Of a DNA stretch of 38,862 nucleotides, positions 22,782-38,159 are shown in pieces. Every line of letters begins with the position of its first letter. Within the stretch, counting starts at the first letter, position 1. The notes beneath the pieces were generated by a model. That model ran no database searches, was not told where the DNA came from, and saw only the letters and a program-made list of their open reading frames with translations. Position numbers and translations under genes: made by a program. The DNA is from an uncultured bacterium (GTDB lineage Bacteria; Myxococcota_A; Polyangia; Polyangiales; Houyiibacteriaceae): positions 1 to 38,862 of the forward strand of contig CALJYC010000267.1 of assembly GCA_937984275.1 (NCBI GenBank), read 5' to 3'.

Positions 22782-22842
22782 CGCTGGCGCTGGCCCGTGA
22801 GGGTATTGCCAGGTGGGCCGACGATCGGGTACCACCTTCTCC

Positions 22843-24078
22843 ATGACTCACCGGGCAAAGCTGTTCGGGGCGCTCGGCCTCGGCGCGTGCTTTGTTGCCC
22901 TGACACTCCGAGCGAGTGCCGACCTCCCCCCCGAAGAAGTGGGTCAGGTGCTGCGGCTTCCGGACACGGTGAGTGACCACTGGCTGTGGGTCCCCGACCG
23001 CGTGTTTCGCCATTCGATCTTGCTCGACGGAGACAGTGGGAAGATGCTGGGCGCCGTCGACAGCGGCGCACAAATCACGCCGAAGCCGCCGCTGTGGGCG
23101 CGCACGCGCAACGAAATTTTCAACGTCGACACGATCTACTCACGCGGCCATCGCGGCGAACGGCATGACTACGTGGTCATCTACGACTCGCGCACCCTCG
23201 CGGTGAAGGGTGAGGTCGAGATTCCGCCGAAGGCAGCCGAGACGAGCACCGGCATCGCGTTGGTCGGCCTGCTCGACGGCGAGCGATTCGTCGCCGTGCT
23301 CAATCAGTCCCCAGGCGCATCCGTCTCTGTCATCGACGTTGAAACGAGACGGGTGGTGGCGGAAGTCCAGACTGCCGGTTGCGCCGCAGTGTTTCCCGCG
23401 GGTCCAACTCGCTTCGGCATGCTGTGCGGCGACGGTACCGCGATCACGGTCCACTTGAAAGACACCGGCGAGCTCGATCGCATCGCACGAAGCGCGCCAT
23501 TCTTCGACGCCGTCGCCGACCCGATCACCGAGAAAGGCGTTCGCGACGGCTCGACTTGGTGGTTCGCCTCCTTCGGCGGGCTCCTCCACCAAGTAGATTT
23601 TGGTGGCGAAAACCCAGCCGCCACCGCACCGTGGCCACTCTTCACCGACGCTGAGCTCAACGACGAATGGCGAATCGGCGGAGCGCAACACCTCGCCTAT
23701 CATCGGGGCACCAAGCGACTCTACTCCGTGGTGCACCAAGGCGGGCCGGGCTCTCACAAGGATCCGGGCACTGAGATTTGGGTCTATGACGTGCCCGCGC
23801 GGAATAAGATCGACGTGATTTCGGCTCCGAATCTCATCGCCGCGTTCCTCGGCCCGCAGGCCGGATTCGATGCCCAAGGCACCTTGGGAAAGATCCTGAA
23901 CTTCTTGGTGCCTAATTCGGGTGTGCACAGCATCGCGGTGACCCAAGACGACCAGCCCCTGCTCTTCATGCGTCACGGAGACCTTGGCGCAGTTGGGGTG
24001 GTCGACGCGATGAGCGGCGAGCATCTCCGGGACATCGAGGAAACCGGGCTGTCCGGCGTGTTATTGGTGGTGCCATGA
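22843..24078 (+). CDS. TTQ amine dehydrogenase heavy chain (MauB/AauB-like)
   Basis: Signal peptide, beta-propeller-like repeats (SVIDVETRRVVAEVQTAGCAAVFPAG), followed by MauE, MauD and MauA homologues. Confidence 0.85.
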   Translation: MTHRAKLFGALGLGACFVALTLRASADLPPEEVGQVLRLPDTVSDHWLWVPDRVFRHSILLDGDSGKMLGAVDSGAQITPKPPLWARTRNEIFNVDTIYSRGHRGERHDYVVIYDSRTLAVKGEVEIPPKAAETSTGIALVGLLDGERFVAVLNQSPGASVSVIDVETRRVVAEVQTAGCAAVFPAGPTRFGMLCGDGTAITVHLKDTGELDRIARSAPFFDAVADPITEKGVRDGSTWWFASFGGLLHQVDFGGENPAATAPWPLFTDAELNDEWRIGGAQHLAYHRGTKRLYSVVHQGGPGSHKDPGTEIWVYDVPARNKIDVISAPNLIAAFLGPQAGFDAQGTLGKILNFLVPNSGVHSIAVTQDDQPLLFMRHGDLGAVGVVDAMSGEHLRDIEETGLSGVLLVVP

Positions 24079-24614
24079 TCGACCCCGTCGTCGAGCTATC
24101 GATTTGCTTCGCGCTGGCGCTCCTCTTTGCTGCGGCCGCCTGGCACAAGGTGTCGGACCGGGTTCGATTTGGAGCCACGGTGGGCGCGTACAGCCTGCTG
24201 CCGCCGTGGCTGGTGTCGCCAGTCGCGCATGTTCTGCCATGGCTGGAGGCATGCATCGCGGTCGGGCTCCTATACCCGCCGACGCGATCGGCCGCCGCGC
24301 TTGCCGTGGTACCGCTGCTGATGCTGTACACCATCGCCATCGCTGCAAACCTCGCCCGCGGGCGACGCGAGATCGACTGCGGATGCTTCGCCTCCTCGGC
24401 GCGTGTTCCGCTAAGCAAGTGGCTCCTCCTGCGTAACGGGATTTTGATCGTCGCCTCCTGCCTGCTCCTCCTCCCGATACGGACGCGAGCGCTGGTGTGG
24501 GTCGACGGAGCAACCATAGTCATGACACTCGCCACGTTGTCTCTCCTCTGGGCATCCGGACAGCGGCTGGCGCAAACCGGCCCAGCGCTCCGCCACTTCG
24601 GAGGCGTCCGATGA
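24075..24614 (+). CDS. mauE: MauE/DoxX-like membrane protein for amine dehydrogenase biogenesis
   Basis: 4-TM protein with AAAAWHKVSD and EIDCGCFA motif; position between heavy chain and MauD. Confidence 0.85.
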   Translation: MIDPVVELSICFALALLFAAAAWHKVSDRVRFGATVGAYSLLPPWLVSPVAHVLPWLEACIAVGLLYPPTRSAAALAVVPLLMLYTIAIAANLARGRREIDCGCFASSARVPLSKWLLLRNGILIVASCLLLLPIRTRALVWVDGATIVMTLATLSLLWASGQRLAQTGPALRHFGGVR

Positions 24615-25210
24615 TCGACGCCCTGCTCATTTCGAACGGCGTCTTGTGGCTCCTGGTCATTGGGCTCGCCCTGACGGTACTCGCCCTCACCCGCCAAGTC
24701 GGATTGCTCCACGAACGCATCTCACCCGTCGGCGCCCTTTCTCCTGAAGCAAAGATCAAAGTCGGCGACCCTGCGCCCGAGCTGGCGTTAATCGACCTCC
24801 ACGATCATCCGGTGCAGATCGGAGGAGCCTCGAAAGACGAGAGCCGGACCCTCTTGTTTTTCCTTTCCCCGACATGCCCGGTCTGCGACACGCTCCTGCC
24901 GACGGTCGAGCGCGTCGCCCGCACGGAAGTGCCGCGCGTCCGGGTCATCCTCGTGAGCGACGGCTTGCCCGACGAACACCGCGCATTCGTGGCCGAGAAA
25001 CGCATCTCTCACTTGCCGTATATCTTGTCGGCGCCCCTCGGCATGACCTATGGGGTGGCGAAGCTCCCCTACGCAGTGCTCATCGACGCAAACGGCATCG
25101 TTGCCGCCCAAGGTTTGGTCAATACGCGCGAACACCTCGAAAGTTTGTTCGAGGCGCAACGACGCGGAGTCGCATCGATCCAGGACTACCTCGAGGAGAA
25201 GGCCAAATGA
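24611..25210 (+). CDS. mauD: MauD thioredoxin-like disulfide protein
   Basis: N-terminal TM anchor, FFLSPTCPVCDTLLP active-site CPVC. Confidence 0.87.
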   Translation: MIDALLISNGVLWLLVIGLALTVLALTRQVGLLHERISPVGALSPEAKIKVGDPAPELALIDLHDHPVQIGGASKDESRTLLFFLSPTCPVCDTLLPTVERVARTEVPRVRVILVSDGLPDEHRAFVAEKRISHLPYILSAPLGMTYGVAKLPYAVLIDANGIVAAQGLVNTREHLESLFEAQRRGVASIQDYLEEKAK

Positions 25211-25746
25211 GTCGGCTCGATCGTTGGTTCGAAGGGATGACACGGCAGTCGGCGCGCCGGGTGTCGCGTCGCAACTGGCTGTCGCGCTTCGGTGGAGTGC
25301 TCGTGGGTGGAGCCGCCCTTCCGCTGCTGCCTGTTGCCCGCGCCGCAGAGAAGCACACCGTCGGCGAGGATGGGGTCAAGGGCCGCGAAGGCGACCCCAG
25401 CCGCTGCGAGTACTGGCGTCACTGCGCCATCGACGGCTTCCTGTGCAGTTGCTGCGGGGGCTCCCACACCGCCTGCCCGCCCGGAACCGAAATGTCCCCA
25501 GTGACCTGGATCGGCACCTGCCGAAACCCAGCGGATGGTAAGGACTACATCATCTCGTACAACGACTGCTGCGGAAAGACGTTCTGCGGCCGCTGCATGT
25601 GCAACCGCAACGAAGGCGAGCGCCCCCTCTACCACTGGTACCGCAACAACGACATCAACTGGTGCGGTGGCGCGCAGGCTCAAACCTACAGCTGCTCGAC
25701 CGCAGTCGTGGTCAAGACCGCCAAAGAGGCGCAGCCGGAGAAATGA
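25207..25746 (+). CDS. Aromatic amine dehydrogenase-like light chain (tryptophan tryptophylquinone subunit)
   Basis: Tat-like SRRNWLSRF leader; CEYWRHCAIDGFLCSCCGGS...WIGTCRNPADGKDYIISYNDCCGKTFCGRCMCN...NDINWC; Trp pair W101/W152, 51 residues apart as in MauA W57/W108. Confidence 0.92.
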   Translation: MSRLDRWFEGMTRQSARRVSRRNWLSRFGGVLVGGAALPLLPVARAAEKHTVGEDGVKGREGDPSRCEYWRHCAIDGFLCSCCGGSHTACPPGTEMSPVTWIGTCRNPADGKDYIISYNDCCGKTFCGRCMCNRNEGERPLYHWYRNNDINWCGGAQAQTYSCSTAVVVKTAKEAQPEK

Positions 25747-26845: not shown

Positions 26846-26866
26846 AAAAGGGGTCTGACCCCTTTT
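26846..26866 (-). repeat. Palindrome AAAAGGGGTCTGACCCCTTTT (copy A)
   Basis: Perfect 10-bp inverted repeat; related copies at 37507 and 38137; flanks match copy B in reverse orientation. Confidence 0.88.
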
Positions 26867-36144: not shown

Positions 36145-37064
36145 GCACGGTCGAAGTCTGCCTGGTTCGGCACGGTCAGTCGGTGTCGAACGCCCGCGGA
36201 GTCTGGCAGGGTCACGGGGACTCCCCGCTGAGCGACGTCGGACGGACGCAGGTCCATGGGCTCCGCCGCGCACTTGACGGACAACGGTACGACCTCGTCC
36301 TGAGCTCGGATCTGAGCCGGGCTGCGGACACCGCCAAGGCTTCGGGCGTCGAGGTGGAGCACGACCGCGCTTGGCGCGAAATCCACGTGGGCGATTGGGA
36401 GGGGCTCACGATGGAGCAGGTCGTCGAGCGCTTCCCGGAGCAAATCGAGGCTCTCAAAGCCCGGCAGACGTTCGCCATCGGCGGGGGCGAGAGCTGGCCG
36501 GAGGTATTCGAGCGGGCCGACGCGTCGCTGGCTGCCCTTCGGGCGCGGATGCCCCACGGCGGCCGGGCTATCGTCTTCACGCACGGCGGCATCATCGCCG
36601 CCCTCCTCTCGGGGCTCCTCGGGGTCCGCGACCAGTTCCCGTGGCCTCTCGGGCGCATGCGCAATACCGGCCGAACGACGCTTCGCTTCTCGGGAAGCCG
36701 AGTTGAGTTGGTTTCGCACAACGACGACACCCACATCCCGGCCAACCTCCGGCAGAAATACGAACCTCGCCCTGACCAGGTCATCGTCCGAATGACCTCC
36801 ATCGCTGGCGATGGTGAGCCAGCCGATACAGGCACAGCGGATTTCAACTCTGCAATCAAATCTGCACGGAAAACGGGTGCAGGTGGGGCGGTGTCGGTAT
36901 CAGGCACGTCACAACAGATCGCTGACCTTGCCCAGAGGACGGCAGGCGCTTCAGTCAATGAATTCCGGTTTGTGGAGCCAGTGCAGGGTCGCTCGAGCGA
37001 GCTGCTGATCTCGGAGAGCCATCAGATGTTACTCGACTACGGGCTCCCGATGATGCAGATTTGA
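36141..37064 (+). CDS. Histidine phosphatase family protein with ~100-aa C-terminal extension
   Basis: [14 protein letters not shown] (RHG), [23 protein letters not shown] overlap with clpP. Confidence 0.9.
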
Positions 37065-37323
37065 AAAATCTGTTGCAGAAATGAAAAGTAAGCAGGCTCA
37101 CGTCTGTACAGCTCGAATACACTTGTAATTCATCTGTAAGGGTTATTCATCACATGTCTCGTTTGTGATCCACCCCACATATGGACCCCCCACTTCGGTC
37201 GATCGGGTGCAATTTAGGGGTTAAACACGCAGAACCTCAAAAATTTTTCAGATCTGAACGATCTCCCATTCCGAGGATCCGGCAACCCCTATGAGATCAT
37301 TCATGATTCCAAGCGCTACAGAG

Positions 37324-37340
37324 TTGGCACGGTCGTAGCA
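37324..37340 (+). promoter_or_regulatory. Sigma-54 (RpoN) promoter
   Basis: TTGGCACGgtcgTAGCA T; GG (37326-27) - N10 - GC (37338-39) spacing exact. Confidence 0.75.
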
Positions 37341-37350
37341 TATAGAAAAC

Positions 37351-37497
37351 TCGACAGAAGCGCTGCGGCGATGACGTACCCCCCACGTCCCCCGTAGCGC
37401 TGTTAGACCGGTGATTTGGCTTGTTTTCCCCCCACTTCATCCAAATCACCATCTCTCTAACGGCCCGAAAGCCCCCCCTTTCGGGCCGTTACTTTTT
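37351..37497 (+). ncRNA. Predicted structured small RNA with three C6-loop hairpins
   Basis: Hairpins at 37359-37401, 37402-37461 and 37459-37490 downstream of a sigma-54 promoter; last is an intrinsic terminator; no credible ORF in the interval. 5' end inferred from the -12 element. Confidence 0.72.
37459..37497 (+). terminator. Intrinsic terminator
   Basis: AACGGCCCGAAAG-CCCCCC-CTTTCGGGCCGTT (13-bp perfect stem) followed by acTTTTT. Confidence 0.92.
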
Positions 37498-37506
37498 AAT
37501 TCCCCG

Positions 37507-37529
37507 AAAAAGGGGTCAGACCCCTTTTT
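37507..37529 (+). repeat. Palindrome AAAAAGGGGTCAGACCCCTTTTT (copy B)
   Basis: Perfect 11-bp inverted repeat around a central base; same family as 26846 and 38137. Confidence 0.9.
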
Positions 37530-38136: not shown

Positions 38137-38159
38137 AAAAAGGGGTCTGACCCCTTTTT
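38137..38159 (+). repeat. Palindrome AAAAAGGGGTCTGACCCCTTTTT (copy C)
   Basis: Perfect 11-bp inverted repeat; 3' flank TTGAAAGGG shared in part with copy B. Confidence 0.9.

Follow-up and report, generated by a model that had tools for sequence, protein, structure and literature searches.

The terminator hairpin of the 6C RNA B11 has a C loop that pairs with guanine tracks located at ribosome-binding sites, and terminator C-loop regulators have been described as rare in Gram-negative bacteria (PMC12395582). The RNA sX13 of Xanthomonas presents three C-rich loops, requires G-rich motifs in its targets and acts independently of Hfq (PMC3771888). Among myxobacterial sRNAs, the literature searched contains an in-depth treatment of Pxr alone, and it has not been settled which targets this RNA acts on directly (PMC11928866). 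LuxO sites of the form TTGCAW3TGCAA are located upstream of several sigma54-driven qrr sRNA genes (PMC11443567). The Qrr RNAs themselves are not known to be C-run-loop RNAs.

The window analysed here is a stretch of 38,862 nucleotides from an uncultured myxobacterium. Based on fold, genus conservation and covariation, positions 37351-37497 of its + strand, from the estimated transcription start to the end of a T5 tract, very likely encode an undescribed small regulatory RNA of about 147 nt, with no transcript shown so far. Three hairpins were found on this strand, each with a C6 or C7 apical loop. Hairpin 1 (HP1, 37359-37401) carries the loop ACCCCCC between GACGT and ACGTC and is supported by covariation; it is also the only match in the window of a model made from single-hairpin RNAs of other genera (R2, see below). 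Hairpin 2 (HP2, 37410-37450), also supported by covariation, consists of a 10-bp inner stem (37410-37419 with 37441-37450) and a 21-nt loop containing CCCCCCACTTC, its C6 run being located at 37428-37433. Hairpin 3 (HP3, 37458-37497) represents an intrinsic terminator according to pairing and covariation, with a 14-bp stem at 37458-37491 that includes a U-A closing pair, a C-run loop and a T5 tract ending at 37497.

In the preferred reading this RNA is almost fully structured and displays its three C6/C7 loops. Its 147 nt fold at -63 kcal/mol compared to -32.0 +/- 3.3 kcal/mol in shuffled sequences (z = -9.3). On both strands of the whole 38.9-kb window six hairpins with a run of C6 or longer in the loop were detected, three of which are those of this RNA, as against 0.77 on average and at most three in shuffled windows.

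An optional outer stem of HP2 (37402-37461, + strand), formed by GTTAGA at 37402-37407 and TCTAAC at 37456-37461, was inferred from complementarity. It overlaps the terminator stem by 4 nt (37458-37461), so that the two stems compete. An earlier note on the same DNA, prepared without database searches, had claimed both the three C6-loop hairpins and this competition. All three hairpins held at the positions it gave, as did the overlap. Since the nearly invariant columns of the outer stem hardly vary, covariation speaks neither for nor against the pairing itself, which remains undecided.

The covariation alignment comprised 14 distinct sequences of the genus and is shallow, its members being similar to each other (92% mean column identity). 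Across the 14 sequences 98.4% of the cells pair and nine pairs changed on both sides, giving 25 two-sided compensatory cells vs 7.3 +/- 2.9 in shuffles. Sliding the partner strand destroys the pairing, leaving only 37-49% paired in the slid structures. Most of the evidence comes from HP1, in which five of 16 pairs changed on both sides with 98.7% of cells paired; HP2 and HP3 each contribute two such pairs (95.7% and 100% of cells paired, respectively). The C loops are nearly invariant in the genus while the stems drift. Conservation and covariation in relatives, the absence of which would have refuted the earlier note, were thus both found. Its proposal of a new sRNA with functional C6 loops is supported by the conserved and covarying stems that drift while the loops stay, the function of the loops being inferred and a transcript not shown.

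The genes upstream of the RNA are predicted to encode ClpP and a histidine phosphatase, and the downstream sspB-like gene is encoded on the opposite strand. The RNA was detected in 15 of the 19 genomes of the genus (E 3.8e-42 or better), 3' of the same phosphatase gene and in the common setting clpP-phosphatase-RNA-sspB. Among the four remaining genomes the phosphatase gene is missing from the assembly in three and cut by the contig end in one; therefore, no real absence of the RNA is known in the genus. The exact RNA core also occurs in the public genome collection, in 14 metagenome-assembled genomes titled Myxococcales, Deltaproteobacteria, Polyangiaceae or uncultured bacterium. In four further genera of the family the region 3' of this phosphatase gene contains no such RNA, and within the genus a C6ACTTC run at 37184 lacks conservation.

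Within the genus the mean pairwise identity amounts to 0.91 in the promoter and to 0.84, 0.92 and 0.95 in HP1, HP2 and HP3, whereas the spacers reach only 0.40-0.49 and the sequence 3' of the T tract 0.21. This profile of conserved promoter and hairpins between variable spacers and 3' flank fits an independent RNA gene, an inference made from sequence alone. In the preferred reading the window RNA is a three-hairpin form that appears to be single-copy in its genus.

Two observations concern the surroundings of the locus. A REP-like short palindromic repeat, AAAAGGGGTC(A/T)GACCCCTTTT, occurs in three copies (26850-26862, 37512-37524 and 38142-38154), two of which flank sspB, and similar copies are located near the RNA in some relatives. 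At 22813-25743 the window contains genes matching the methylamine dehydrogenase heavy chain, MauE and the methylamine dehydrogenase light chain, which we did not expect in a myxobacterium.

A sigma54-type (-24/-12) promoter, TTGGCACGGTCGTAGCATA, is predicted on the + strand at 37324-37342, about 260 nt beyond the upstream stop codon. Within it, TTGGCACGGTCGTAGC at 37324-37339 shows the GG-N10-GC spacing of sigma54 promoters, and the mean identity of 0.91 contrasts with 0.40-0.44 in the flanking spacers. The suggestion of a sigma54-type promoter in the earlier note is thus supported by the spacing and by the conservation of the box in the genus, and similar boxes also precede other C-loop RNAs of the order. 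Since at least ten activators with a GAFTGA-type sigma54-contact motif are encoded in the own genome, a sigma54 system is inferred to be present; rpoN was not directly searched.

Three palindromes resembling TTKCA-N4-TGMAA, to which no strand is assigned, lie upstream of the promoter at -271, -251 and -78, and deviate by at most one mismatch across the genus, except in one genome, in which the -271 site does not reach this level. The putative enhancer site nearest to the promoter, TTTCAGATCTGAAC (37246-37259), is a one-mismatch version located 78 nt upstream of the -24 box and is identical in 15/15 loci of the genus. The exact match TTGCAGAAATGAAA (37073-37086) was found at the same position in 15/15 loci, its middle 4 nt varying at the -251 position while the half-sites are kept (at most one mismatch). 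The third site, ATGCAGATTTGAAA (37053-37066), has one mismatch, overlaps the end of the phosphatase gene and is found at the same position in 14/15 loci. Between enhancer and promoter lies a conserved block, TGAGATCATTCATGATTCC (37292-37310), to which no role could be assigned; its positions 37294-37309 are the best conserved among the stretches compared (0.955 mean identity).

A further strongly conserved block around CTGTACAGCTCGAATACACTTGTAATTCATCTGTAAGGG was noticed between the enhancer sites (37104-37141) and possibly represents another binding site. Moreover, a second sigma54 promoter that is nearly identical to the sRNA promoter is conserved in the genus (L057 in G000:C253, L058, L059, L061 and L062). 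These near-copies (L057-L062) were considered as further C-loop RNAs and rejected, as they lead into a protein gene starting MEIFLNKRAM.

In a comparison with Rfam 15 no family reached its gathering score for the window RNA, so that the match to a described family which would have counted against novelty was not found at the cut-off. The scores were 32.1 bits for 6C (RF01066; gathering score 47), 28 of 60 for ar7 (RF02342) and 14.5 of 80 for Pxr (RF01812). As all three are C-loop RNAs, the likeness is regarded as one of design; membership fails on score in each case. Searches with the Pxr model, which covered 34 family genomes as well as 209 genomes of the phylum, returned nothing above its cut-off, and three weak matches in the phylum were rejected as ordinary terminators. 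The earlier note had left it undecided whether the RNA is a relative of Pxr, an analogue or a separate class. Common descent is unsupported by the sequence, while a separate but Pxr-like class is supported.

Evidence of such a class was obtained with a model of the genus RNA (R1). Its matches in other genera are weak (E 3e-5 to 0.03 per genome), and these loci have their own sigma54 promoters and their own C-loop hairpins; twelve loci derived in this way showed no match in Rfam, and one match (L050, 36 bits) was discarded for lack of a C6 run. The order-wide pattern was defined as TGGCAC-N7-GC, 20-50 nt, C6, 8-38 nt and T5, the assignment of the compared genomes to class and order resting on kinship labels. 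This succession of sigma54 box, C6 and T5 occurs in 51 of 184 genomes of the order, in many of them in several copies, vs 4/184 for a G6 control and few matches for the reversed pattern. A hand count gave at least about 90 distinct places, including nine in G120 and six in G118. The window RNA itself is missed by this single-hairpin pattern because its T5 follows only after hairpin 3.

Of 30 representative loci, 27 fold into a terminator hairpin whose apical loop carries the C run. In 380 genomes of the phylum, matches resembling C-loop hairpins by eye were confined to the own class, and six sporadic matches outside of it are unlike them. A second model (R2), built without the window from the single-hairpin RNAs of other genera, matches only HP1 in the window (E = 0.031) and contains only five pairs. 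Because the MAFFT alignment of these RNAs yields a poor consensus structure, R2 is mostly a sequence model.

The window RNA meets the features by which we define the class, namely a TGGCAC-N7-GC promoter, hairpins with C6 or longer apical loops, a T tract and an upstream TTKCA-N4-TGMAA. Since several C-loop hairpins follow in a row in some relatives (L063, L064 and L130-L132), its three-hairpin form is one arrangement among several; elsewhere in the order the class is, in the preferred reading, often multicopy and usually single-hairpin. In L064 (G104:C71) tandem arrays of C6-loop hairpins were observed; one stretch contains at least four hairpins in succession, the stems of which alternate yet are related. 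The class appears to be undescribed in the literature searched, which was limited to open-access papers.

The palindrome TTKCA-N4-TGMAA (up to one mismatch) was found upstream of 25 of 31 loci of the class, at a distance of 48 to 126 nt from the -24 box, whereas 0.6 would be expected from shuffles, permuted motifs gave 0-1 and a control region gave one. It has to be taken into account that the motif was derived from the same 31 loci; for this reason its conservation at fixed positions in the genus and a search free of the C condition weigh more. This latter search, for palindrome and promoter only, returned 38 places in 30 of 184 genomes and none for the reversed control. Twenty-three of 30 of its loci lead into an apical hairpin with C5 or more, some of them overlapping the earlier set. 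By eye, no shared activator gene was seen among the varied upstream genes of ten other loci of the class. Both the shared enhancer palindromes and the order-wide multicopy class are absent from the earlier note and are new here. The promoter type, upstream motif and loop chemistry that the window RNA has in common with dozens of further RNAs of the order suggest, from sequence alone, a large unnoticed RNA regulon.

We presume that the window encodes a trans-acting, sigma54-driven sRNA which is controlled by a palindrome-binding activator and uses its C loops as anti-G seeds, and we consider this reading likely (probability roughly 0.72). The structure and its covariation, the motifs of promoter and enhancer, the conservation in the genus and the wider class with its common upstream motif are shown by computation; transcription, a single activator family for all loci and pairing of the loops with mRNAs are inferred. 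An enhancer-binding activator would recognise TTKCA-N4-TGMAA and switch on the sigma54 promoter on demand, one such activator inducing the C-loop RNAs by a logic like that of Qrr and LuxO. Base pairing of the C6/C7 loops with G tracts located at or close to ribosome-binding sites would then block translation or accelerate the decay of several mRNAs.

For targets, five genomes of the genus were searched for GTGGGGGG-N2-14-ATG. No target set was recovered, four of the genomes (G004, G012, G013 and G016) being not clearly above the reversed control. One G-run motif conserved in four genomes was rejected as a target because it is located near the end of a reading frame and not at its start. The sole target lead is a TolQ/ExbB-type gene, which in two genomes has a G6 run as its Shine-Dalgarno sequence.

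The main rival, although rather unlikely, is that the C loops bind a protein such as an RNA-binding regulator or a nuclease, and that the RNA acts as a sponge or decoy of the CsrB type and not by antisense pairing. Identical loops on unlike stems and the tandem C-loop arrays of L063 and L064 would suit the titration of one ligand, and the G-run search revealed no enriched targets. However, RNAs with the same loop chemistry, 6C/B11 and sX13, pair with G tracts (PMC12395582, PMC3771888), and our analysis provided no candidate protein.

It seems unlikely that the window RNA is a divergent true homologue of Pxr, the developmental sRNA that blocks fruiting-body formation in Myxococcus xanthus. Such a relationship would be in agreement with the sigma54 promoter, the three stem-loops and the C run which the Pxr model consensus shows in stem-loop 1; in Cystobacter, tandem paralogues of Pxr occur as well (PMC5568312). 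However, the match to the Pxr model reaches only 14.5 bits (E 1.7), far below the cut-off of 80, and the neighbouring genes are clpP, the phosphatase gene and sspB instead of the NtrC-like regulator gene pxrR and a NADH dehydrogenase gene (PMC5568312). A cis-acting attenuator or leader, or a mere 3' terminator array of the upstream operon, could be suspected from the position after the phosphatase gene and from the typing of 6C as 'Cis-reg' in Rfam. This reading is very unlikely, since the RNA has a conserved promoter of its own, located about 260 nt beyond the stop codon of the upstream gene, since sspB downstream is oriented in the opposite direction and since conservation drops to 0.21 immediately behind the T tract.

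Beyond the preferred reading of a trans-acting sRNA with anti-G loops, a bolder version may be as easily wrong as right. It holds that a single sigma54 activator family governs an undescribed lineage-wide regulon consisting mainly of C-loop sRNAs, up to about nine per genome, across the genus's class of Myxococcota. Such a switch would operate several sRNAs in the manner of Qrr, but by means of anti-G loops, and Pxr is perhaps its distant counterpart in the Cystobacterineae. If the class described here is correct, a whole order would gain an sRNA regulon that can be recognised by a defined promoter, activator site and pairing motif, and its activator, signal and targets could be tested directly in those members of the order that can be cultivated.

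Among the known systems, 6C/B11 of Actinobacteria resembles the window RNA in having two hairpins with apical loops of C6 or more, one of which is the terminator, and the 6C model aligns end to end over HP2 and HP3. It belongs, however, to a different phylum, and the window RNA has three hairpins and a sigma54 promoter with enhancers. The ar7 RNA of Alphaproteobacteria is similar in its C-run loops, its length and its full-length alignment, whereas hairpin 1 of the ar7 model pairs poorly with the window sequence. With sX13 the window RNA shares three stable stems and three apical C-rich loops (4C, 4C and 5C in sX13); in contrast, sX13 stems from an unrelated lineage, the window loops are C6/C7 behind a sigma54-type promoter, and no sX13 entry appeared among the Rfam matches of the window.

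Pxr of the Cystobacterineae likewise comes from myxobacteria, is preceded by a sigma54 promoter and has three stem-loops, the first of which carries a C run in its loop. This loop is essential for the function of Pxr, which we count as a likeness although the function of the window loops is inferred. The Pxr model has one clear C-run loop compared to three in the window RNA, and the gene neighbours are different. The regulatory logic resembles that of Qrr and LuxO in Vibrio, where several sRNA genes depend on sigma54 and one activator, with a TTGCA...TGCAA palindrome about 90-120 nt upstream. The LuxO spacer comprises 3 nt, whereas the window sites have a 4-nt middle and TTK/TGM half-sites, do not meet the criterion TTGCAW3TGCAA and belong to an unidentified activator. 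By analogy, the window RNA would be part of a system that works like Qrr without being a member of it.
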